Shown here piece after piece: positions 12,315-38,523 of a stretch of 64,000 bases of DNA; the first letter of the stretch is position 1, and every line of letters begins with the position of its first letter. The stretch is taken from contig JAJVIP010000009.1 of NCBI GenBank assembly GCA_022072025.1, positions 62,001-126,000 of the forward strand. Direction: 5' to 3'. The translations under genes were made by a program, and so were the position numbers. The notes beneath the pieces were generated by a model. It did no database searches, had not been told where the DNA came from, and saw only the letters and a program-made list of their open reading frames with translations. The DNA is from Elusimicrobiota bacterium (lineage in GTDB: Bacteria > Elusimicrobiota > Elusimicrobia > F11).

Positions 12315-12716
12315 CTATTTGTTCAATTCCACCAAAGCCTTTTTGTTATCAGAACTTGAAAATACAATCAGACATTTTTCGGCGTCCTGAAGTGCGGTCG
12401 CGTATAAATGTTTAAGATCGATTCCAGCCTTCTCCAGGCGTTCTGTCATTTGCTTGAGCATCCCCGGTTTATGTTTGACTTCCACGAGCACCACATCTTC
12501 CTCCTTGGCGTCAAACTTCTGCGCTTGAAGGGCTTCTTTGGCTCTTAAATTGTCATCTGTGATGAGATGAACCATGGCCATGATGTCATAAACCCAGCAG
12601 CTGATCGCCAAAATGCCCACACCCTTCTCTGATACAGTTTTTGAAATGTACTTGAGTGCGCCCACCTGATTCGATGTTTTTACGACAATTTCTTTTCCTT
12701 GAGTTGCTTGAAACAT
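12315..12716 (-). CDS. Tandem ACT-domain protein
   Basis: 133 residues. The start at 12714-12716 is preferred because GGGAGGT lies directly upstream on the minus strand. Two ACT folds are seen: residues 1-65 (KEIVVKTSNQVGALKYISKTVSEKGVGI) and 70-133 (VLVEVKHKPGMLKQMTERLEKAGIDLKHLYATA). ACT domains bind small ligands, usually amino acids, and regulate enzymes; no enzyme is attached here. A TATGA-N6-TCATA box at 12770-12785 lies 54 bp upstream and is shared with the divergent 66-residue gene. Confidence 0.85.
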   Translation of the reverse strand: MFQATQGKEIVVKTSNQVGALKYISKTVSEKGVGILAISCWVYDIMAMVHLITDDNLRAKEALQAQKFDAKEEDVVLVEVKHKPGMLKQMTERLEKAGIDLKHLYATALQDAEKCLIVFSSSDNKKALVELNK

Positions 12717-12769
12717 AATCCACCTCCCATAAGACACAAATGAAACTATGAAATTTTTTGCCACCTCAT

Positions 12770-12785
12770 TATGACGGCCCTCATA
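12770..12785. promoter_or_regulatory. CRP/FNR-like box A, TATGA-CGGCCC-TCATA
   Basis: Perfect TATGA-N6-TCATA dyad. On the plus strand a TG-extended hexamer TATTTT (12807-12812) is centred exactly 32 bp from the dyad centre, as in class II activator promoters, and the gene at 12841 starts 56 bp past the box. The ACT gene lies divergently 54 bp away. Confidence 0.75.
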
Positions 12786-14004: not shown

Positions 14005-14075
14005 ATATCTTTGGACCTCCACTTAAGTGTGGCATCCTACCTATGACCATTTTATGCGCTGGAAAGGAACCATTA

Positions 14076-14091
14076 TATGACCTTCCTCATA
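14076..14091. promoter_or_regulatory. CRP/FNR-like box B, TATGA-CCTTCC-TCATA
   Basis: Perfect dyad in the divergent region between the GGDEF gene (minus) and the AI-2E family gene (plus). On the minus strand TAAAAT (14049-14054) is centred 32 bp from the dyad centre and matches the -10 consensus in five of six bases; the plus-strand position has no comparable hexamer. Confidence 0.75.
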
Positions 14092-17070: not shown

Positions 17071-17086
17071 TATGATGGGAATCATA
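17071..17086. promoter_or_regulatory. CRP/FNR-like box F, TATGA-TGGGAA-TCATA
   Basis: Perfect dyad between the lipoprotein gene (minus, 45 bp away) and the ECF sigma gene (plus, 114 bp away). The hexamers at class II spacing are weak on both strands, so a class I or repressor role is possible. Confidence 0.6.
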
Positions 17087-24105: not shown

Positions 24106-24121
24106 TATGACGCCCCTCATA
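24106..24121. promoter_or_regulatory. CRP/FNR-like box C, TATGA-CGCCCC-TCATA
   Basis: Perfect dyad 56 bp upstream of the tolC-RND unit. A TG-extended hexamer TATCGT (24143-24148, preceded by TGA) is centred exactly 32 bp from the dyad centre. The same hexamer and spacing recur at box D. Confidence 0.78.
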
Positions 24122-24176
24122 CAACAAATGTTTCTGGTTTGATATCGTTCTCGCCTAAAATCAAAAAGGGGAGTTC

Positions 24177-28882: not shown

Positions 28883-28898
28883 TATGATAACCCTCATA
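28883..28898. promoter_or_regulatory. CRP/FNR-like box D, TATGA-TAACCC-TCATA
   Basis: Perfect dyad 60 bp upstream of the universal stress gene. Hexamer TATCGT (28920-28925), identical to that at box C, is centred exactly 32 bp from the dyad centre. The box starts 11 bp past the palindromic element. Confidence 0.78.
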
Positions 28899-28957
28899 TA
28901 TGAGGAGTTTTTGATTTAATATCGTGCGTTCAGAGAATCAAAAAAGGAGGGGCTTAT

Positions 28958-29905
28958 ATGGCTGAATCAAAACGCATCATTATTGGTTATGACGGGTCTT
29001 CAGCGTCGCAGGCCATATTTGCTGATTTAAAGAGAGCAGGCCTCCCTCCCCATCTCGAGGCTATTGTTCTTTCCGCGATTGACTTCACCCCTCCCAATTG
29101 GATCGACATGGCCACCATTAACCAGTCCGTTTTGGTTGAAGAAATAGAATCCGCTCGTTCGAATGCCTTGGAGTATGCCGAGAAAATCTCCAAAGAAGCC
29201 TGTGATCGGTTGAAAGCCCAATTCCCAGGATGGAAGGTCAGTCCTGAAGCCCATTCGGTTTCCGCGGCGCAGGCATTGGTGACGAAAGCGGAGAAATGGA
29301 ACGCCGATCTTATTGTGATGGGGGCCCATGGCCACTCACAACTGGGACGGTTTTTGGGCAGCGTATCTCAATTGGTTCTTATGCAGGCCCCTTGTTCGGT
29401 TCGGATTTCGAGATCTCCCGCCGAATCATCCCCGGGTGTTAAGATTTTAATCGGTGTGGATGGTTCCTTGGGATCTGATGCGGCCATGAAGACCGTTCAA
29501 GGTCGTTTTTGGCCCTCTTCAACCGAGGCCCGCGTTTTATCTGCGCTTTATTCACATCCCACTTTGCAAATGACGCATATGGTTCCTCCTGATCTGAAAG
29601 CCGTTCGTCCAGTGTCAGGCCAACAACGAATGGCTGTTAATCAGATGGTGGAAAAATTTTCAGGAGAACTTCGAAAAGTCGGAGTGGAGGCGCAGGCCTT
29701 GGTGCGGGAGGGCGATCCCAAGCACCTATTGGTGGCTGAAGCTGAATCCTGGAAAGCGGATTGCATCTTTATGGGAGCTCGCGGCTTAAGTTCGTTGAGA
29801 CGGTTTTTACTGGGAAGTGTGTCGATGGCCGTGGCCGCAAGGGCACATTCTTCAGTTGAAGTGGTTCGTTCTAAAGACCAAGCCTCGAACGAGGCGAGGT
29901 CATAA
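28958..29905 (+). CDS. Tandem universal stress protein
   Basis: 315 residues, ATG after AAAGGAGG. Two UspA domains: about 1-150 and 155-310. The ATP-binding motif G2xG9xGS is exact in the second (GARGLSSLRRFLLGS) and one residue short in the first (GAHGHSQLGRFLGS). Both start with a typical strand (IIIGYDGS; ILIGVDGS). Tandem Usp proteins accumulate in growth arrest or oxygen limitation. The promoter carries CRP/FNR-like box D, and a 69-residue gene follows 16 bp later. Confidence 0.92.
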   Translation: MAESKRIIIGYDGSSASQAIFADLKRAGLPPHLEAIVLSAIDFTPPNWIDMATINQSVLVEEIESARSNALEYAEKISKEACDRLKAQFPGWKVSPEAHSVSAAQALVTKAEKWNADLIVMGAHGHSQLGRFLGSVSQLVLMQAPCSVRISRSPAESSPGVKILIGVDGSLGSDAAMKTVQGRFWPSSTEARVLSALYSHPTLQMTHMVPPDLKAVRPVSGQQRMAVNQMVEKFSGELRKVGVEAQALVREGDPKHLLVAEAESWKADCIFMGARGLSSLRRFLLGSVSMAVAARAHSSVEVVRSKDQASNEARS

Positions 29906-30674: not shown

Positions 30675-31184
30675 ATGGACAGGCTTAAAAAGTTTTATTT
30701 TTTCTTTCTCTTTATAACCTCGCTCTTCTGCGGATTGGGTCTTTTTACATTCCATTATGCGGAGGGTTTGTCCTATTTCAGTACAGATCCCAAAGCTTGC
30801 GTGAATTGTCACATCATGCAACCTCAATATAACTCCTGGAAACGTTCCAGTCACCATTCGGTGGCTTCGTGTGTGGAATGTCATTTGCCCCATAACTTTA
30901 TTAATAAATATATAGCGAAGGCAGACAATGGCTACCGGCATTCAAAAGGATTCACATTTCAAGATTTTCATGAGCCGATTATGATCAGCCCAAGAAACAG
31001 CCAAATTTTGCAAGAAAATTGCATGAGGTGTCATTCCCCGTTGGTTCATGGCTCGGCTTTGACCTTTGCCAGTGATACACAACCTGTTTCATGTGTGCAT
31101 TGCCACTCGGGGGTTGGGCACGGAGAGAGAACAGGCGTGGGGCGTTTTGAAAAATTTAAGTTATATGAGGGGGAGAAAGGGTGA
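30675..31184 (+). CDS. nrfH: NrfH-type tetraheme quinol dehydrogenase
   Basis: 169 residues. One N-terminal membrane anchor (about 7-27) then four CxxCH heme sites: CVNCH, CVECH, CMRCH, CVHCH. This is the NapC/NirT family and with the next gene forms the NrfHA complex, which takes electrons from menaquinol for nitrite reduction. The last bases GTGA contain the nrfA start. A dyad ATGAT-GCA-ATCAT lies just upstream. Confidence 0.93.
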
Positions 31185-32617
31185 ATAAAATAATTGAGTT
31201 GTTCAGAAAACTAAAATTTCAACTTTTATTGGGGGCGGGCCTCATCATAGGAACCGTCCTCATCACGGCTTTGTTGATCAATATTTTTGAAAGAAAAAGG
31301 GAAGCACGAAACCCCTATGTTCGTTTGGTTGAAGTGACTGAAAATGATACCGACCCCGCCAAGTGGGGAATCAATTGGCCAAAAGAATATGACTCCTATA
31401 AACTCACCGCGCTTTCAACCCGAACACGGTTTGGCGGGCATGGGGGAAGTGAGGCCATGCCCCAAGAAAAGTTGGAACGAGATCCATGGCTCAAGCGAAT
31501 GTTTCAAGGTTATGCGTTTTCAATTGATTATCGGGATCGCCGAGGGCATGCCTATATGTTGTCCGATCAAGAGTCCACCAAACGGCTCAGCAAACCCCAA
31601 TCCGGATCTTGTCTGCATTGCCATGCGTCCGTCATGCCGCTGTATCGGAAGTTGGGGGACGGAGATGCCGCGAAAGGATTTGAAAAAAGTTATCAATATT
31701 CATACCAGGAGCTAAACCAGATACTGCATGATGAGGGGCACGCTCATCCTGTGTCTTGCGTTGATTGTCATGATCCCAAATCCATGGAGTTAAGAGTGAC
31801 ACGCCCCGGTTTTATCAAAGGAATCCAATCACTTGCTCAGTCCAATTCACCGGTTCCACATATTCCCTCCATTCAACGGTGGAGAGAGGGAGATCGTAAA
31901 AAGCCCTACGATCCCAATCGCGAGGCCTCCCAAACGGAGATGAGGTCTTTTGCTTGCGCGCAATGTCACGTGGAATACTATTGTGGGCCCAAAATGCCTT
32001 TGACGTTTCCTTGGGGCAAGGGGCTCAAGGTGGAGGAGGTTGAAGAATTCTGGAACACCACACAATATACGGATGGAACTCCTTTTTCAGATTTTGTCCA
32101 TGCGGAAACAGGAGCCAAACTTCTCAAGGCGCAACATCCCGAATTTGAATTGTGGAGTCAAGGCATTCACGCGCGAAGTGGCGTTTCCTGCGCGGATTGT
32201 CATATGCCCTACATGCGTGACGGCGCCACCAAAGTCTCCGACCACTGGGTTCGAAGCCCCCTTCTCAATATCAACCGGGCTTGCCAAACCTGCCACCGAT
32301 GGCCGGAGGAAGAGATCAAGGCTCGAGTGGATGTGATTCAGGAACGGAACCACAATCTCCTGCAGCGAGCGGCCAAGGCACTTATGGATCAGTTGGATGC
32401 GATTCAACAAGCCAAAAAAGAAGGAGCCACAGAGATTCATTTGAAAGAGGCGTTTGAATTTCAGCGAAAGGCGCAATGGCGTCTTGATTTTATTGCTGCA
32501 GAAAATTCCATGGGATTTCATGCTCCTCAGGAGGCCGCGCGGATTCTGGGAGAAGCAGCCGATTACGCTCGCCAAGGGCAAGTTGCCGCCGTTCATTGGA
32601 AGAAGACGAAACAATAA
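31181..32617 (+). CDS. nrfA: Cytochrome c nitrite reductase catalytic subunit with CxxCH heme 1
   Basis: 478 residues, GTG start overlapping nrfH. N-terminal signal/anchor helix (about 15-34). Five heme sites: CLHCH, CVDCH, CAQCH, CADCH, CQTCH. Active-site context is kept: Tyr in [12 protein letters not shown] and His in [15 protein letters not shown]. In classical NrfA the first, catalytic heme is CxxCK with lysine as ligand; here it is CLHCH, the histidine-type variant known from some epsilon-proteobacteria and others. Reduces nitrite to ammonium in the periplasm with six electrons. Overlaps/abuts the SulP gene. Confidence 0.93.
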
Positions 32618-34327
32618 ATGGGAAGAGACGCCTTTCATCGTTGGGTTCAAAAGAACCTTCATAAGTACGAAGACATTTTTATTCCGAAGTTATTTTTTTC
32701 TCTCAGGGATTATTCCAGTAAACAATTCCGTTCGGATTTGTCCGCTGGTGTGGTGGTGGGCTTGGTGGCTCTCCCGTTGGGCATGGCTTTCGCCATTGCC
32801 TCTGGTCTACCCCCAGAGAGAGGTTTATATACGGCTATTGTGGCGGGTTTCCTGATTTCGCTTTTGGGCGGTAGCCGCGTTCAAATTGGAGGACCCACCG
32901 GCGCCTTTGTGGTTATTGTTGGCGGTGTTGCCGCTCAACATGGTTATGAAGGACTTGCGATTGCCACATTGATGGCGGGCTGTATCCTGTTTTTGATGGG
33001 CCTCGGACGCTTGGGGACCTTGATTAAGTTTATACCGGTTCCCGTTATAACGGGGTTCACATCAGGAATCGCGGTCATTATTTTCAGTGGCCAGATCAAA
33101 GATTTCCTGGGTTTACAAATGGACTCTGTCCCCTTGGACTTTATTGAAAAATGGCGCGCCTATGGTGACGCCATTGGATCTTTGAACGGCGCGGCTTTTT
33201 TGATCGGCCTATCCACAACCCTGTTGATTTTTTTCTGGCCTAAGAAATGGCAAAGATTTCCTGCCTCCATTGTCGCGCTCGTCTTAGCGACACTGGTTGT
33301 CGAAGTATTCCGTCTGCCGGTGGAAACAATTCATTCTCGCTTTGGAGACGTTCCCCACGGATTGCCATTTCCAGAATGGCCTTCTGTTTCTTGGGAAAAA
33401 GTTAAATTGTTGTTCCCAAGCGCATTGACCATCGCAGCCTTGGGGGCCATTGAATCGCTCCTTTCGGCGGTTGTGGCCGATGGAATGATCGGCAGCCGCC
33501 ACAGGTCCAATCAAGAACTGTTGGCCCAGGGCATTGCCAATATCACAACCCCTTTTTTTGGCGGGTTTGCCGCCACCGGGGCCATTGCTCGAACAGCCAC
33601 CAATGTAAAAAATGGGGCCCGGACACCCATCGCCGGAATAACCCATGCGATTGTCCTCCTTATTATATTGCTGGTGGCGGGTCCCTTGGCGTCGCTTGTT
33701 CCTTTGGCTGCCTTGACTGGGGTTCTGATCGTCGTGAGTTATCACATGTCGGAGTGGCGATCGTTTCGATTTCTTCTTTCCGGAACCGGGAGCGACAAAC
33801 TTGTTCTGCTCGCCACCTTTTTCCTGACCGTGTTTGTGGATTTGGTGGTAGCCGTAGAAGTAGGCATGGTCTTGGCGGCCTTTTTGTTCATGAAAAACAT
33901 GGCGGAATTAACTGAAGTGAAGGCTTTCACGAAAGAAATGGCTCCGGAAGGCGGCGAAGATCTGGTTCAGGATTTTACCGCCCCACCGGGCGTGGAGGTT
34001 TTTTCAATACGGGGAGCTTTCTTTTTTGCGGCAGTTCACAAAATGATGGAGGTGGACCGAATTGTCGCGAAAACTCCTCATGCCTTGGTGTTGGATATGG
34101 GGGACGTTATCCATATGGACATGAGTGGACTTCATGTGCTTGAGCGACTCCATCAACAATGTCGGGCCCGAAAAATTCGGTTTATTTTATCGGGGCTCCA
34201 TTCTCAGCCTTACCAAACAATCCTAAAAGCGAACAAAGTCGATATGTTTGGAAAAGAACACATCAAACGCGATTTAAAAACCGCTTTGCGGGACCTCAGT
34301 TCACCAGCCCCTAAATCTGTTCATTAA
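32618..34327 (+). CDS. SulP-family anion transporter with STAS domain
   Basis: 569 residues, ATG directly after the nrfA stop. About 11-12 membrane helices including the SulP signature (GLVALPLGMAFAIASGLPPERGLYTAIVAG and IQIGGPTGAFVVIVGG) and a C-terminal STAS domain (LVLDMGDVIHMDMSGLHVLERL). Family members carry sulfate, bicarbonate, nitrate or organic anions. Its tight linkage to nrfHA suggests an anion related to nitrite/ammonium metabolism or bicarbonate, but the substrate is unproved. The stop codon lies inside the left terminal repeat of a palindromic element. Confidence 0.92.
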   Translation: MGRDAFHRWVQKNLHKYEDIFIPKLFFSLRDYSSKQFRSDLSAGVVVGLVALPLGMAFAIASGLPPERGLYTAIVAGFLISLLGGSRVQIGGPTGAFVVIVGGVAAQHGYEGLAIATLMAGCILFLMGLGRLGTLIKFIPVPVITGFTSGIAVIIFSGQIKDFLGLQMDSVPLDFIEKWRAYGDAIGSLNGAAFLIGLSTTLLIFFWPKKWQRFPASIVALVLATLVVEVFRLPVETIHSRFGDVPHGLPFPEWPSVSWEKVKLLFPSALTIAALGAIESLLSAVVADGMIGSRHRSNQELLAQGIANITTPFFGGFAATGAIARTATNVKNGARTPIAGITHAIVLLIILLVAGPLASLVPLAALTGVLIVVSYHMSEWRSFRFLLSGTGSDKLVLLATFFLTVFVDLVVAVEVGMVLAAFLFMKNMAELTEVKAFTKEMAPEGGEDLVQDFTAPPGVEVFSIRGAFFFAAVHKMMEVDRIVAKTPHALVLDMGDVIHMDMSGLHVLERLHQQCRARKIRFILSGLHSQPYQTILKANKVDMFGKEHIKRDLKTALRDLSSPAPKSVH

Positions 34328-34462: not shown

Positions 34463-35023
34463 TCAGTGAGTTGATGTGCGGCGTCTCATTTCCTCTCGAA
34501 CTTCTTCAAGAAGAATTTTTACGTTCTTTTTAAAGACTCGCATGGTGAGAAAATCCGGAGAATAAAAGGCCGGGACCGCTTCCAGTTCATAGGTGACGCT
34601 TGTATTATTTCCCACAGAAGAGAGGCTCCACTTTCCCGCATACGATTTAAAGGATTTTTTGGAGACATCGTGGAAGGCGATTGTTTGCAGCGGAACTTCT
34701 TTGATTTCCAGCAGCAGGTAAATTCGTTTTCTAAAAAAACCCGTTTTTCCCGTCATTATTTGTTCGACAACCCAATGGCCATTTTCCTGACGAACTTTTT
34801 TGCTGGATTTGATGCTGGAGACGAATTTCGTGAGATGATCGTAATCGCCTAAAACTTCCCAGGCTGTTTGCGACGAACATTCAAGAGTGAAATGTCCTTC
34901 CACCCGATGTGAATCCTTGGGTCCTTGAGAAAGAGTGACTTGGATCTCCGTCCCTTTGTTCAGGTTCTCTGCACAAAGGGGGGAGATCCAAGTCAAGATC
35001 AATAATAGGGCAGAAAATCTCAC
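34463..35023 (-). CDS. Secreted START/SRPBCC-like ligand-binding protein
   Basis: 186 residues from GTG 35023, one base after the upstream stop. Signal peptide about 1-18 (LLLILTWISPLCA). The rest matches the SRPBCC/START fold pattern: GHFTLECSSQTAWEVLGDYDHLTKFVSSIKSS, IYLLLEIKEVPLQTIAFHDVS, YAGKWSLSSV, TYELEAVPAFYSPDFLTMRV. Such proteins bind hydrophobic ligands. It is the last gene of a five-gene minus-strand unit with YceI and a beta-barrel, which suggests transfer or sensing of a lipid-like molecule across the periplasm. Confidence 0.82.
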   Translation of the reverse strand: MRFSALLLILTWISPLCAENLNKGTEIQVTLSQGPKDSHRVEGHFTLECSSQTAWEVLGDYDHLTKFVSSIKSSKKVRQENGHWVVEQIMTGKTGFFRKRIYLLLEIKEVPLQTIAFHDVSKKSFKSYAGKWSLSSVGNNTSVTYELEAVPAFYSPDFLTMRVFKKNVKILLEEVREEMRRRTSTH

Positions 35024-35024
35024 C

Positions 35025-36269
35025 CTACTCGGATTTGTCTCCGAAGGCTGTTGCGCCGAATTTAACGCCGAATTCTGATATCACGCCTCTAAACCGAGGG
35101 TCTTGGGCGTTAATATGAGCTGGATTGGTTCCTTTGAAGTCTTGATAGCGTTGATCGACATATTCAACCTTGAAGAGCATTCCGTCAGCAATTTTATAGC
35201 CACCGCCCACTTGGAACCGTCCCACGCGTCCATCTTGTTCCACTCCGCGAATAATGGAAGAACGGGCCGCGCTAAAACGCGTGGCCGCGTAAAAGCGTTG
35301 GGTGATATCCACCTTGGCTTCCGCGCCCCAATAGGTCCATCTTTCGGCGGGGGTCCCTGCGGTCAATCCACTGTTGGTGTCGGCGTCCTCATACCAACCC
35401 CAAAGGCCGCTCATGGCGAGTCGGGAAAGGGTGAAACCCGCGTCGAATTGATAGGCCGTTACATCATACCCTTTGCCCATGAACACTTGTCCCGCGTCAG
35501 GGTCACCGTCCACGGAAGTGGGGCCAAATACTCCCGCGTACCGACTGCCGCTTCTTAGCGCCGAGAAAAGTTCGGTTGTGGCATTGCTTGAATGGTGAAC
35601 CCGATAATAGGATCCGGCCAAGAAGAATTTTTTACTTTTAGGCTCAATGAGAACTTTTCCGTGATTGGAATAGGCTCGACCTGAAGTAAACTTTTCTGTC
35701 GTCACTCCGTTGCTTATGCCACCCACCAGGTGCAGCCAATTAAAGTCTCCGATGAGTTCAACGCCTCCTTCCACCGTGTTCGGATCGACCACATAATTTC
35801 CGATCAGCGGATTGCGATAGATGTCGGCATTGTCTGAGCGGTAGAGATGCTGTTGCCCGAAATCCAATTCGAAGTGACCGCCTTTGACCTTGAAATATTT
35901 AAAAAACCAATCGTTGATGTTCAATACATTCATGTGGTCGGGCAATTTGGAAATCATCAAATAGCCTTCGCGGGCGTACAGAGTGCCCAAATGTCTCCGG
36001 CTGGAGAGATAGAAGTCCGCATAGACGTCGATTCCAGGCATGACTGTTGTGAACAATTCCAAATTGGCCAACGCCGCATGGAATCCAGACTCGATTTGTG
36101 GCAATGTACCGTTGTTGTTTTTTTGTTGTAAGTCTTGCCACGCGCCCACCGTGAGAACGCGAATTTTTACCGGTGGAAGCGATGTGTCGTAATCCTCCAA
36201 TGCCGCTTTAACCGGGCCGCTTAAAAGCAGTCCAGCCAACAGCATGAAAGACCATCTTAATTTACCCAT
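35025..36269 (-). CDS. Outer membrane beta-barrel porin-like protein
   Basis: 414 residues. Signal peptide 1-22 (MLLAGLLLSGPVKA). The mature chain is rich in short amphipathic strands and aromatic residues (GYLMISKLPDHMNVLNINDWFFKYFKVKGGHFELDFGQQHLYRS; FQVGGGYKIADGMLFKVEYVDQRY) and resembles 16-stranded porins. The end (SEFGVKFGATAFGDKSE) has the last strand shortly before the terminus. Spacing to neighbours is 20 bp upstream (YceI) and 1 bp downstream. Substrate unknown. Confidence 0.82.
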   Translation of the reverse strand: MGKLRWSFMLLAGLLLSGPVKAALEDYDTSLPPVKIRVLTVGAWQDLQQKNNNGTLPQIESGFHAALANLELFTTVMPGIDVYADFYLSSRRHLGTLYAREGYLMISKLPDHMNVLNINDWFFKYFKVKGGHFELDFGQQHLYRSDNADIYRNPLIGNYVVDPNTVEGGVELIGDFNWLHLVGGISNGVTTEKFTSGRAYSNHGKVLIEPKSKKFFLAGSYYRVHHSSNATTELFSALRSGSRYAGVFGPTSVDGDPDAGQVFMGKGYDVTAYQFDAGFTLSRLAMSGLWGWYEDADTNSGLTAGTPAERWTYWGAEAKVDITQRFYAATRFSAARSSIIRGVEQDGRVGRFQVGGGYKIADGMLFKVEYVDQRYQDFKGTNPAHINAQDPRFRGVISEFGVKFGATAFGDKSE

Positions 36270-36289
36270 AGAACCCCCTTTTTTTATTT

Positions 36290-36919
36290 TTAATTTTTAG
36301 TGAGACGTAAATCGAAGTTAACAACCACGCGGTTGTGCGTTCGGATGGCCCCCATGATGGTGGGGGGCTTGACTCCATACTCGGTCATCAGAAGATCGCG
36401 GTTTCCTTTAATGATGACGGTCTCTCCTTCAATCACTGTCGCCTCAATGTCCACTGGTTTTGTTTGCCCTGCGATGGTGAGATCTCCTTTCGAAGACAGG
36501 TTAAATTGGCCAGTCACGGAAGATGGGGAAACCGTGTAGCTGTTCAAAAGATAAGAAATATGAGGATGGTCAACCGCTTTTAAAGCTTTGTACATGTTTT
36601 TGTCCATTTGAGCTTTTCCCGATTTGAGTCCTGTCACAGCTACTTTCACCTGAAGACTTTTTAATCCCCCGGTTTTAATGGCTTCATATATATTTTCAGA
36701 AGCGGGTTGAACATCAACGTTAAATTCAAGTTCGGTGGCGGTGGCGGAATAGGCGTGGAGCGTGGAATCTCCAATCAGCCACAATTTACTTTCAGGAGCC
36801 AGAACAACTTGGGTGGCAGGTTTTTGCGTCGATGGTTCGGGGGTGGCCACTGGTGCTGAGAAACAAAGTCCGCTATTTAAGAGGAGGGCGAGAGTCCAGG
36901 TACCCAATTTTCTCTTCAT
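36290..36919 (-). CDS. YceI-family periplasmic lipid-binding protein
   Basis: 209 residues, signal peptide 1-21. The YceI lipocalin-like fold is visible: SKLWLIGDSTLHAYSATATELEFNV at the start, KMYKALKAVDHPHISYLLNSY, LTIAGQTKPVDIEATV, and HNRVVVNFDLRLT at the end. YceI proteins bind polyisoprenoid or similar lipids. Preceded by AGGAGA-type site and placed 9 bp after the 100-residue gene, 20 bp before the barrel gene. Confidence 0.88.
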   Translation of the reverse strand: MKRKLGTWTLALLLNSGLCFSAPVATPEPSTQKPATQVVLAPESKLWLIGDSTLHAYSATATELEFNVDVQPASENIYEAIKTGGLKSLQVKVAVTGLKSGKAQMDKNMYKALKAVDHPHISYLLNSYTVSPSSVTGQFNLSSKGDLTIAGQTKPVDIEATVIEGETVIIKGNRDLLMTEYGVKPPTIMGAIRTHNRVVVNFDLRLTKN

Positions 36920-36928
36920 ATTTTCTCC

Positions 36929-37231
36929 TTAGGCCGCCTCTCGTAACGCATTCAGGGCAGCGACTTCAATGGTTGGTGTAATTGATTCGATGATAGAGGG
37001 CTCAATTTCATACGAAAACAACATGGGAATAATAGAAATTTGAATATCTTTGGCTAATTTGGCTTTCTGTTCATCAGAAAAAAAAGACAAGTCAGTTATC
37101 GGTTCGAGAATCTTTCGAACTTTAAACGTGAGCGCGGGAACCAGCATTAAGGGTGGTTGGGGAAATTGTTGAATGATATCGCTGTAAATGGCTCCCGCTA
37201 CTTTCCCCACCATCCGGTCAAATTCAACCAT
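36929..37231 (-). CDS. Hypothetical protein, 100 residues, second gene of CBS operon
   Basis: The start at 37229-37231 is chosen for the AGGAGGG eight bases upstream; the gene overlaps the end of the CBS gene by 8 bases. Predicted mostly helical, no signal peptide (MVEFDRMVGKVAGAIYSDII, then FPQPPLMLVPALTFKVRKIL, ITPTIEVAALNALREAA). I do not recognise it. Its coupling to the CBS gene suggests a joint cytoplasmic role. Confidence 0.7.
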   Translation of the reverse strand: MVEFDRMVGKVAGAIYSDIIQQFPQPPLMLVPALTFKVRKILEPITDLSFFSDEQKAKLAKDIQISIIPMLFSYEIEPSIIESITPTIEVAALNALREAA

Positions 37232-37727
37232 GTTGAACGCCCTCCTCTGTTTCAGCTGCAACTTGTCGAAGAACATCGAAACTGCTGACAATGCCGGCCA
37301 GGGGTTCGTTGTTTTTTCCCTGGACGAAAATATGATGAATTCCATATTTCACCATACGGCGGGAAATTTCCTTTAAAGAGGTCTCGGGTTTAACGCTGAA
37401 GATGACCGGGGTCATCCAATTCTGGACGGTGTCATCTTCATCGATGACATGAAATCCGGCGGGTTTGTCTTCTCGGTTAATATTTGAGAGATCCTTTTTA
37501 TTGACGGTTTTGCTTCCATCGTTCCCTTCTTCGTATCGGACGATGTCGGTTTTTGTGATGACCCCCACGGGTTTTCCTTTGGTGTCCAAGACGGCGGCGG
37601 CTCCAATATGATTTTCTGTGAATAGGCGGGCCACGTCATGGATGGAGTCGGAGAAACGGACGACCTCGACAGGTTTGGTCATGATTTCATGCGCCTGTAG
37701 GTCTTCAATCGCGGTTTTGGTTTTCAT
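37224..37727 (-). CDS. CBS-domain pair protein
   Basis: 167 residues, ATG after GGAGGAG. Two CBS motifs: residues 12-68 (AHEIMTKPVEVVRFSDSIHDVARLFTENHIGAAAVLD, then PVGVITKTDIVR) and 98-155 (VQNWMTPVIFSVKPETSLKEISRRMVKYGIHHIFV, then LAGIVSSFDVLRQ). CBS pairs bind adenine nucleotides and report energy state. It heads a five-gene unit with the 100-residue protein, YceI, the barrel and the START-like protein. CRP/FNR-like box E lies 61 bp upstream. Confidence 0.92.
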   Translation of the reverse strand: MKTKTAIEDLQAHEIMTKPVEVVRFSDSIHDVARLFTENHIGAAAVLDTKGKPVGVITKTDIVRYEEGNDGSKTVNKKDLSNINREDKPAGFHVIDEDDTVQNWMTPVIFSVKPETSLKEISRRMVKYGIHHIFVQGKNNEPLAGIVSSFDVLRQVAAETEEGVQHG

Positions 37728-37787
37728 ATCTCCTCCTCAAAATCTTGTTGTATGTGTCTCAGTGTGCCTCATTCAGCGAAAAGTGTT

Positions 37788-37803
37788 TATGATTCGCATC
37801 ATA
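37788..37803. promoter_or_regulatory. CRP/FNR-like box E, TATGA-TTCGCA-TCATA
   Basis: Perfect dyad 61 bp upstream of the CBS gene on the minus strand and directly beyond the 3' end of the Crp/Fnr regulator gene. The hexamer at class II spacing (CACACT) is weak, so promoter strength or class may differ. Confidence 0.68.
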
Positions 37804-37830: not shown

Positions 37831-38493
37831 CTATTGCAAGAGGGCTTGAAGTTTTTCTTTGTTTTTTAAAAATATTTGTCCTCGGGATGAGTCAATCCAA
37901 TGTTTCTTTTGAAATTGACTCAAAGTGCGGATGGTGGTTTCAACGGTCGTGGCGGCCAATTCTCCGATTTGTCTTTTTGTGTAAGGGAGGGTGTTTCCAT
38001 GAGTTTTGGAAAGCTGAAACAAGGTTCTCACGATTCTTTTTTCAACAGGTTCTTGTGTGGTACAGGTCAATTCCTGCATCATGTTGAGTCGGTTGCTGCA
38101 GAGCGTGCAAACGCCTGAGACCACAGAGGGATTTCTACGGAAAATATCCAGGAAAACACTGTCTGGAATGCGGTATGAGGCGGAATCCACGGCGGAGATG
38201 GCGGTGCAAGGATAGGTTTTTCCGCTGCCTCCCATGCGGCAGAGGGTGCCAAACAACTCCCCCGGGTTTATGATTTCAATGGCGCGGGGTTTTCCGTCCG
38301 AGGTGTATTTGAAAATTTCGAGTCGGCCTTGAGTGAGCACCCAGACGCTACCGGCCTCATCGCCCTCGTTAAAAATAGTTTCGCCTTTGAGATGTTTGAA
38401 CTCCTGAGCCATCGATGCCAAATGGTCCAAATCACCGGCAGATAAGCCTCTGAAAGGATCGATGTTGGATAAAAAAAATCTAACGGAACCCAT
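37831..38493 (-). CDS. Crp/Fnr-family transcription regulator
   Basis: 220 residues from ATG 38493. Cyclic-nucleotide-type sensor domain (about 10-130: HLKGETIFNEGDEAGSVWVLTQGRLEIF, NPGELFGTLCRM) and C-terminal winged helix (TKRQIGELAATTVETTIRTL). The cAMP-contact motif of CRP is not conserved (YPCTA in place of the RS/T site), and no N-terminal FNR cysteine cluster exists; cysteines occur instead at LCR, YPC, VCTLC and LTC, so a redox or other ligand is possible. The recognition helix has Val184, Glu185 and Arg189 at the positions of CRP Arg180, Glu181 and Arg185. Best candidate to bind the TATGA-N6-TCATA boxes. Confidence 0.9.
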   Translation of the reverse strand: MGSVRFFLSNIDPFRGLSAGDLDHLASMAQEFKHLKGETIFNEGDEAGSVWVLTQGRLEIFKYTSDGKPRAIEIINPGELFGTLCRMGGSGKTYPCTAISAVDSASYRIPDSVFLDIFRRNPSVVSGVCTLCSNRLNMMQELTCTTQEPVEKRIVRTLFQLSKTHGNTLPYTKRQIGELAATTVETTIRTLSQFQKKHWIDSSRGQIFLKNKEKLQALLQ

Positions 38494-38523
38494 AGCGCTT
38501 TCTAACAAACAACACCCACCAAA

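Follow-up and report, generated by a model that had tools for sequence, protein, structure and literature searches.

A Crp/Fnr-family regulator of Elusimicrobia predicted to act through TATGA-N6-TCATA boxes

A stretch of DNA from an Elusimicrobiota bacterium carries both a gene for a Crp/Fnr-type regulator and several copies of the palindrome TATGA-N6-TCATA, which raises the question of whether the one is read by the other. The stretch (the window, 64,000 nucleotides) represents positions 62001-126000 of contig C9 in a source genome (G000) of 3.64 Mb and 43 contigs. A sequence-only reading had placed a Crp/Fnr regulator at 37831-38493; this was borne out by the open reading frame and by Pfam, and the strand, which had not been given, is minus. 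The gene runs from an ATG at 38493 to a stop at 37831 and encodes 220 amino acids (P0001), with an alternative TTG start at 38508. Pfam matches to cNMP_binding (E 8.8e-18) and HTH_Crp_2 (E 2.6e-13) were both above the cut-offs, giving the cNMP-binding-like beta-roll and HTH_Crp_2 domain of the Crp/Fnr superfamily. An AlphaFold model (pLDDT 82.6) matched CRP-family structures with TM values up to 0.85; CRP, GlxR, FNR and FixK2 structures were among the matches and the CRP fold was dominant. None of the curated equivalog or subfamily cut-offs for the named regulators of NCBIfam was passed, the best scores being FixK with 40 bits (cut-off 300), Fnr with 39 (228) and CRP with 34 (266). Orthologs with 45-60% identity are present in Elusimicrobia, and those with descriptions are Elusimicrobia metagenome-assembled genomes (MAGs), several from groundwater or subsurface samples.

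Six exact TATGA-N6-TCATA boxes are found in the window, beginning at 12770, 14076, 17071, 24106, 28883 and 37788. The 3.64 Mb genome holds 17 such boxes against one match to a reversed-pattern control (Poisson about 1e-15), and contig C9, which constitutes 7.7% of the genome and carries the regulator, accounts for 8 of the 17 (binomial 1.6e-5). Chance palindromes were excluded as an explanation by reversed-pattern controls across 235 genomes. At no source-genome site is TATGA followed by A in either half; the next base is always C, T or G. No TATGA motif of a Crp/Fnr protein was found in the open papers searched, and TATGA represents a specificity variant new to this literature, within a type of CRP/FNR switch that is well known. 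RedB was considered as a relative and rejected, as its reported motif is a non-palindromic AT-rich 12-mer (PMC9603854) and no link was found.

The box at 37788-37803 begins 27 bp after the regulator stop, in agreement with an earlier claim that one box, termed E, lies just beyond the gene. Orthologs were collected with a 15-row profile from 235 genomes of the class; 20 genomes scored above 300 bits and the next score was 238. Of the first 15 orthologs, 12 have a box with no more than one mismatch at -5 to +37 bp relative to the stop, and 16 of all 20 have one with 0-1 mismatch at -5 to +74 bp; the 20 include some close relatives or genomes of recent shared ancestry and are not fully independent. 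No box was found right behind the gene in G022, G039, G021 and G218. The middle six bases of the adjoining box vary among genomes, as does the gene that follows it: CBS in the source genome, hemerythrin in G045 and G031, DUF488 in G009 and a multihaem cytochrome in G002. When every inverted repeat of 5 bases with a spacer of 2-12 was tallied de novo behind the 20 regulator genes, TATGA-N6 came out on top with 11 of 20 exact, followed by ATGAC-N4, which is its shifted form, and unrelated repeats reached at most 4; upstream of the same genes no inverted repeat stood out.

When the boxes of the source genome are oriented to their genes, 9 of 21 have a TANNNT that starts exactly 21 bp beyond the palindrome, and no other distance is represented more than twice. 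With all orientations counted, the figures are 11 of 34 at 21 bp (mean elsewhere 0.4), and in the other ortholog-bearing genomes 24 of 65 (mean elsewhere 0.8); the distance was found by scanning the source genome and then confirmed in the other genomes. A TANNNT hexamer at 21 bp places the centre of the box at -41.5, which is the class II position of Crp/Fnr activators. This position was found in two genome sets and is derived from the -10 spacing, the transcription start being predicted. Start codons of the target genes are mostly 50-90 bp from the box. Promoters of the ortholog genomes also show a G bias downstream of the box (TCATAG, 27 of 47), and no matching C precedes the upstream half in the sites checked.

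These distances bear on the direction of control. The regulator might repress from its boxes, or the box behind its gene might serve that gene's own termination or autoregulation, as its place just past the stop in most orthologs would allow. The fixed 21-bp gap sets the box upstream of the -10 rather than over it at many promoters, and the start codons lie mostly 50-90 bp away, so that repression or autoregulation is considered improbable and activation is preferred.

The box tracks the ortholog across the class. The sequence-only reading had proposed co-occurrence of regulator and motif among genomes as a check, and the 20 ortholog-bearing genomes hold 87 exact boxes against 5 control matches, while most genomes without the ortholog show no such excess over the control. 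Counts per ortholog-bearing genome outside the source genome and G007 are modest, between 1 and 6. A box accompanied by a -10 was present in 17 of the 20 ortholog genomes and in 20 of the other 215 (Fisher 4e-13). The ortholog of G205 (38% identity, helix L-E-T-T-F-R) comes from a genome without an exact box.

The motif in a genome lacking the ortholog had been named as evidence that would count against the pairing. Such genomes do occur, and most instances are likely explained by a sister clade, congeners, palindromes without promoters or AT-rich background. Eight of the 20 non-ortholog genomes with a box and a -10 hold distant homologs of the regulator (G048, G059, G213, G214, G216, G221, G231 and G232). 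The homologs of six of these eight were included in a tree, where they form clade 2, sister to the clade of the orthologs (clade 1), and clades 1 and 2 together have a support of 96/88. The sister-clade homolog of G231 has a box about 41 bp away and that of G232 one about 33 bp away, and in seven of the eight genomes the box is found some 35-55 bp ahead of genes whose protein products contain YYPAPSGVY. TATGA promoters in clade 2 genomes (L161-L166, L115) mostly precede exported-looking proteins with the string YYPAPSGVYTQM. Two further genomes, G227 and G050, share a genus with ortholog-bearing genomes. The other ten are f14 and f10 genomes, where the matches are mostly away from gene starts; these appear to be mostly AT-rich background, and are not fully explained. 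Boxes without the ortholog were also found in G016 and some f14 genomes.

G028, with nine exact boxes and no ortholog, was rejected as a counter-example: none of the nine is followed by a -10 at the 21-bp distance, and the one copy inspected appears to fall within a coding sequence or at its end. Judged from this single copy, the G028 palindromes seem to represent a coding repeat. In G028 no Crp/Fnr regulator passed the family cut-off, three weak HTH_Crp_2 matches falling below it. Separately, f14 genomes (L222, L223, L220) encode FNR-like regulators with an N-terminal CxxC...C and L-E-T-V-V-R helices, and in G142 and G143 ATTGAC-type boxes adjoin genes for FNR-like L-E-T-V-V-R regulators.

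It is conceivable that the boxes are read by another protein, a Crp/Fnr paralog or an unrelated palindrome-binding factor, and that the regulator is merely a neighbour; the box lies behind the regulator gene and not in its promoter, and some genomes without the ortholog have boxes. Three HTH_Crp_2 regulators were found in the source genome, and the recognition helices of the two paralogs, S-R-E-T-V-A-R and A-R-E-V-I-S-R, both keep the Arg180 of CRP, which goes with TGTGA. The genome does contain TGTGA-N6-TCACA, six copies against none for the control. Two of these are on C26, at 14150 and 21825, as is the S-R-E-T-V-A-R paralog (C26:20523-21173; L129, L213); one is 648 bp from the paralog gene and the other about 6 kb, and both have TANNNT at 21 bp. 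A neighbour's role is also at odds with the box staying with the regulator as the adjacent genes change, with the -41.5 centring typical of Crp/Fnr activators and with box-plus-promoter tracking the ortholog across 235 genomes. A different reader is thus judged quite improbable. The claim that the regulator reads TATGA is strongly supported by co-occurrence, the conserved adjoining box, the -10 spacing and the elimination of paralogs, all of these being comparisons of sequence, and it is very probable that the regulator pairs with TATGA-N6-TCATA and acts as a class II activator.

The sequence-only reading had assigned TATGA to this protein from its recognition helix, given as T-V-E-T-T-I-R with the Glu and Arg of CRP kept and Arg180 replaced by Val. 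Alignment with E. coli CRP and FNR agrees with this description: in T183-V184-E185-T186-T187-I188-R189 (37927-37947, minus strand), V184 corresponds to CRP Arg180 and FNR Val208, E185 to Glu181 and Glu209, I188 to Gly184 and Ser212, and R189 to Arg185 and Arg213. CRP contacts bases through Arg180, Glu181 and Arg185 (PMC12531629), and by a published rule R180 pairs with G3 and E181 with A6 of the half-site, HcpR proteins without Arg180 reading TTGAC (PMC1274295). Clade 1 has V, L, I or T at the Arg180 position, Glu181 in 19 of 20 members and Arg185 in all 20. The exception at Glu181 is the G031 ortholog (L024), in which Arg replaces the Glu, yet an exact TATGA box lies behind its gene; the Arg may be a real change or an assembly error.

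The argument from these residues stood in part. Loss of Arg180 does account for the missing G, but the A at the second arm position is not predicted by it, as FNR, with the same Val-Glu...Arg, has T. Nor are the named residues sufficient: distant homologs with E-T-A-I-R or E-S-A-I-R helices (G024, G008, G019) belong to genomes in which 0-1 TATGA boxes were counted, and for this reason, together with the T of FNR, the helix residues were rejected as a sufficient cause. Since loss of Arg180 alone goes with T in FNR and HcpR, the A of TATGA needs another cause, and the few boxes in the genomes of the E-T-A-I-R homologs indicate that the context of the helix matters too. The position of FNR Ser212 is Ile or Phe throughout clades 1 and 2, and from this we infer a candidate cause of the A. 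The earlier residue argument pointed to the right protein, but alone does not predict TATGA.

Targets were assigned by distance and orientation to a box only. The box behind the regulator is centred 68 bp before the gene of a CBS-domain protein (37224-37727, minus strand), the first gene of a same-strand run, and the hexamer at the usual spacing from this box (CACACT, 37761-37766) makes an imperfect -10. The rest of this predicted operon (34463-37345, minus strand) encodes a 138-aa protein without a Pfam match, a YceI-like protein, a 414-aa protein without a Pfam match that is porin-like by eye, and a polyketide-cyclase-like protein. The box at 12770-12785 precedes an ACT-domain gene, with a -10 (TAGTTT, 12743-12748) on the minus strand, and the combination of box and ACT gene recurs in G007. 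If the ACT-domain frame (12315-12770) were read from the GTG at 12764 it would span its own promoter; an ATG near 12716 is the probable start. The box at 14076-14091 separates a minus-strand GGDEF gene, on whose side a -10 is present (TAAAAT, 14049-14054), from an AI-2E-family transporter gene on the plus strand, and that at 17071-17086 is flanked by a minus-strand gene for a DUF3313 lipoprotein and a plus-strand gene for an ECF-type sigma factor. The two others precede genes for an outer-membrane efflux protein and AcrB-type pump (24106-24121; -10 TATCGT, 24143-24148) and a double universal stress protein gene at 28958 (28883-28898; -10 TATCGT, 28920-28925).

Over the whole source genome the predicted targets include universal stress proteins (three sites), the CBS operon, GGDEF, ECF sigma factor, efflux and ACT-domain genes, MarC, a cytochrome oxidase subunit II domain, sensor kinases, an AAA_33 kinase, DUF308, and an alpha/beta hydrolase with a phosphoribosyltransferase gene nearby. 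Those of relatives include hemerythrin, an NrfH-type cytochrome, multihaem cytochromes, a molybdopterin oxidoreductase, Hsp20, an ACT-domain protein and cytochrome oxidase subunit II. From these predictions the regulator appears to turn on genes of respiration and stress survival. No exact box was found in front of the genes for a NapC/NrfH-type cytochrome, cytochrome c552 nitrite reductase and a SulP transporter at 30675-34327 of the window. The NrfH-type gene of G007 has a box, unlike the NapC/NrfH-type gene of the window, which lies between boxes.

The residues around the old nucleotide pocket suggest what the protein may sense. The cAMP ligands of CRP, Glu72, Arg82 and Ser83, are replaced by Thr83, Tyr94 and Pro95, so cAMP is unlikely as the signal. 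A cAMP-dependent CRP with a drifted site would suit the dominance of CRP-fold neighbours in the fold search, but it is contradicted by these replacements and by the paralog at C27:168744, which keeps F-G-E...R-S-A and would be the better cAMP candidate; it is regarded as extremely improbable. The N-terminal cysteine cluster of FNR was not found either, there being no cysteine before residue 85 and no N-terminal extension. Cysteines are conserved elsewhere: Cys85 (38239-38241) and Cys96 (38206-38208), both on the minus strand, are invariant in clades 1 and 2, and Cys96 occupies the cAMP-phosphate site of CRP (Y-P-C against R-S-A). Cys129-x2-Cys132 (38098-38109, minus strand) is at the start of the dimerisation helix, with Cys132 invariant in 15 alignment rows and throughout clade 1, and Cys129 nearly so in clade 1 but absent in G002. 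Cys144 (38062-38064, minus strand), in the dimerisation helix, is nearly invariant in clade 1 and also absent in G002. These data suggest redox state or a nitrogen oxide as the signal, through cysteines 85 and 96 with 129, 132 and 144, and more broadly a thiol, metal or nitrogen-oxide signal. Nitric oxide or oxygen might instead be sensed on haem, as proposed for DNR-type regulators, with the cysteines axial or structural; hemerythrin, the NrfH-type and multihaem cytochromes and cytochrome oxidase subunit II among the targets lend a flavour of nitrogen oxides and respiration, but near the pocket it is cysteines that are strictly conserved as candidate ligands, and no histidine was picked out in the alignment. 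Haem sensing is considered unlikely, though credible, and sensing through the cysteines is preferred.

The comparisons support the assignment of the box to the regulator, its centring at -41.5, the types of target and the absence of cAMP and FNR ligand residues; from them we infer binding, activation, the role of Ile/Phe188 and the nature of the signal. The protein would be a homodimeric activator of CRP/FNR fold, specific to Elusimicrobia as far as searched, placing one recognition helix in each half of TATGA-N6-TCATA. Glu185 and Arg189 would read the TGA core, the missing Arg180 of CRP would lift the demand for G at the second position, and the clade-wide Ile/Phe at 188 probably favours A there. 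At many targets a box centred at -41.5 would let the dimer contact RNA polymerase as a class II activator. The predicted targets are respiratory and stress-survival genes: universal stress and CBS proteins, hemerythrin, NrfH-type and multihaem cytochromes, cytochrome oxidase subunit II, Hsp20, efflux, diguanylate cyclase and sensor kinases. The signal is probably neither cAMP nor an FNR-type N-terminal iron-sulphur cluster, and is most likely redox state or a nitrogen oxide acting through Cys85 and Cys96 (with Cys129, 132 and 144) beside the old nucleotide pocket. A bolder reading, advanced tentatively and with somewhat less than even expectation, is that the two sister clades form an Elusimicrobia-specific subfamily in which redox or nitrogen-oxide sensing relies on a new site of cysteines (Cys85, Cys96, the helix pair Cys129-x2-Cys132 and Cys144) next to a nucleotide pocket that has fallen out of use. 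The site might hold a metal or Fe-S centre where the family is not known to have one, and TATGA would have evolved through Ile/Phe at the Ser212 position.

A mostly uncultured and experimentally open phylum would thereby gain a defined regulator with a readable regulon, and the cysteines in place of the cAMP ligands point to a directly testable sensing site. One genome pairs an R-E-T-V-A-R paralog and TGTGA with a V-E-T-T-I-R protein and TATGA, a natural comparison of residue against base, and the CRP/FNR recognition code gains a case in which Arg180 loss goes with A, not T, at the second arm position.

Among known systems, a low-oxygen gene set of Burkholderia, the low-oxygen-activated (lxa) locus, for which a FixK/Anr-like protein is the candidate regulator, resembles the predicted regulon in its universal stress proteins, heat-shock protein and cytochrome c, a likeness of gene content, in another phylum and with another regulator subfamily (PMC6127331). 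The HcpR1, DNR and NnrR group shares the absence of the FNR cysteines, and its control of nitrogen-oxide and anaerobic genes is of a type that some predicted targets fit; there too Arg180 loss removes the G of the motif, and the reported motifs are of TGTGA, TTGAC, TTGAT or TTGcg types, not TATGA (PMC1274295). E. coli CRP (TGTGA-N6-TCACA) has the same fold, Glu181, Arg185 and half-site spacing, but the regulator has Val184 for Arg180, lacks the cAMP ligands and has no G at the second arm position of its sites. E. coli FNR (TTGAT-N4-ATCAA) shares the Crp/Fnr fold, Val-Glu...Arg at the three base-reading positions, the X5-N6-X5 box geometry, the class II position at many promoters and, by prediction, respiratory targets. 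FNR is marked by Val208, Glu209, Ser212 and Arg213 with TTGAT sites, whereas the regulator and its orthologs have Ile or Phe at 212 and TATGA sites; the regulator itself has Ile for Ser212, carries its cysteines away from the N terminus, where FNR has its cluster, and is predicted to read A, not T, at the second arm position.
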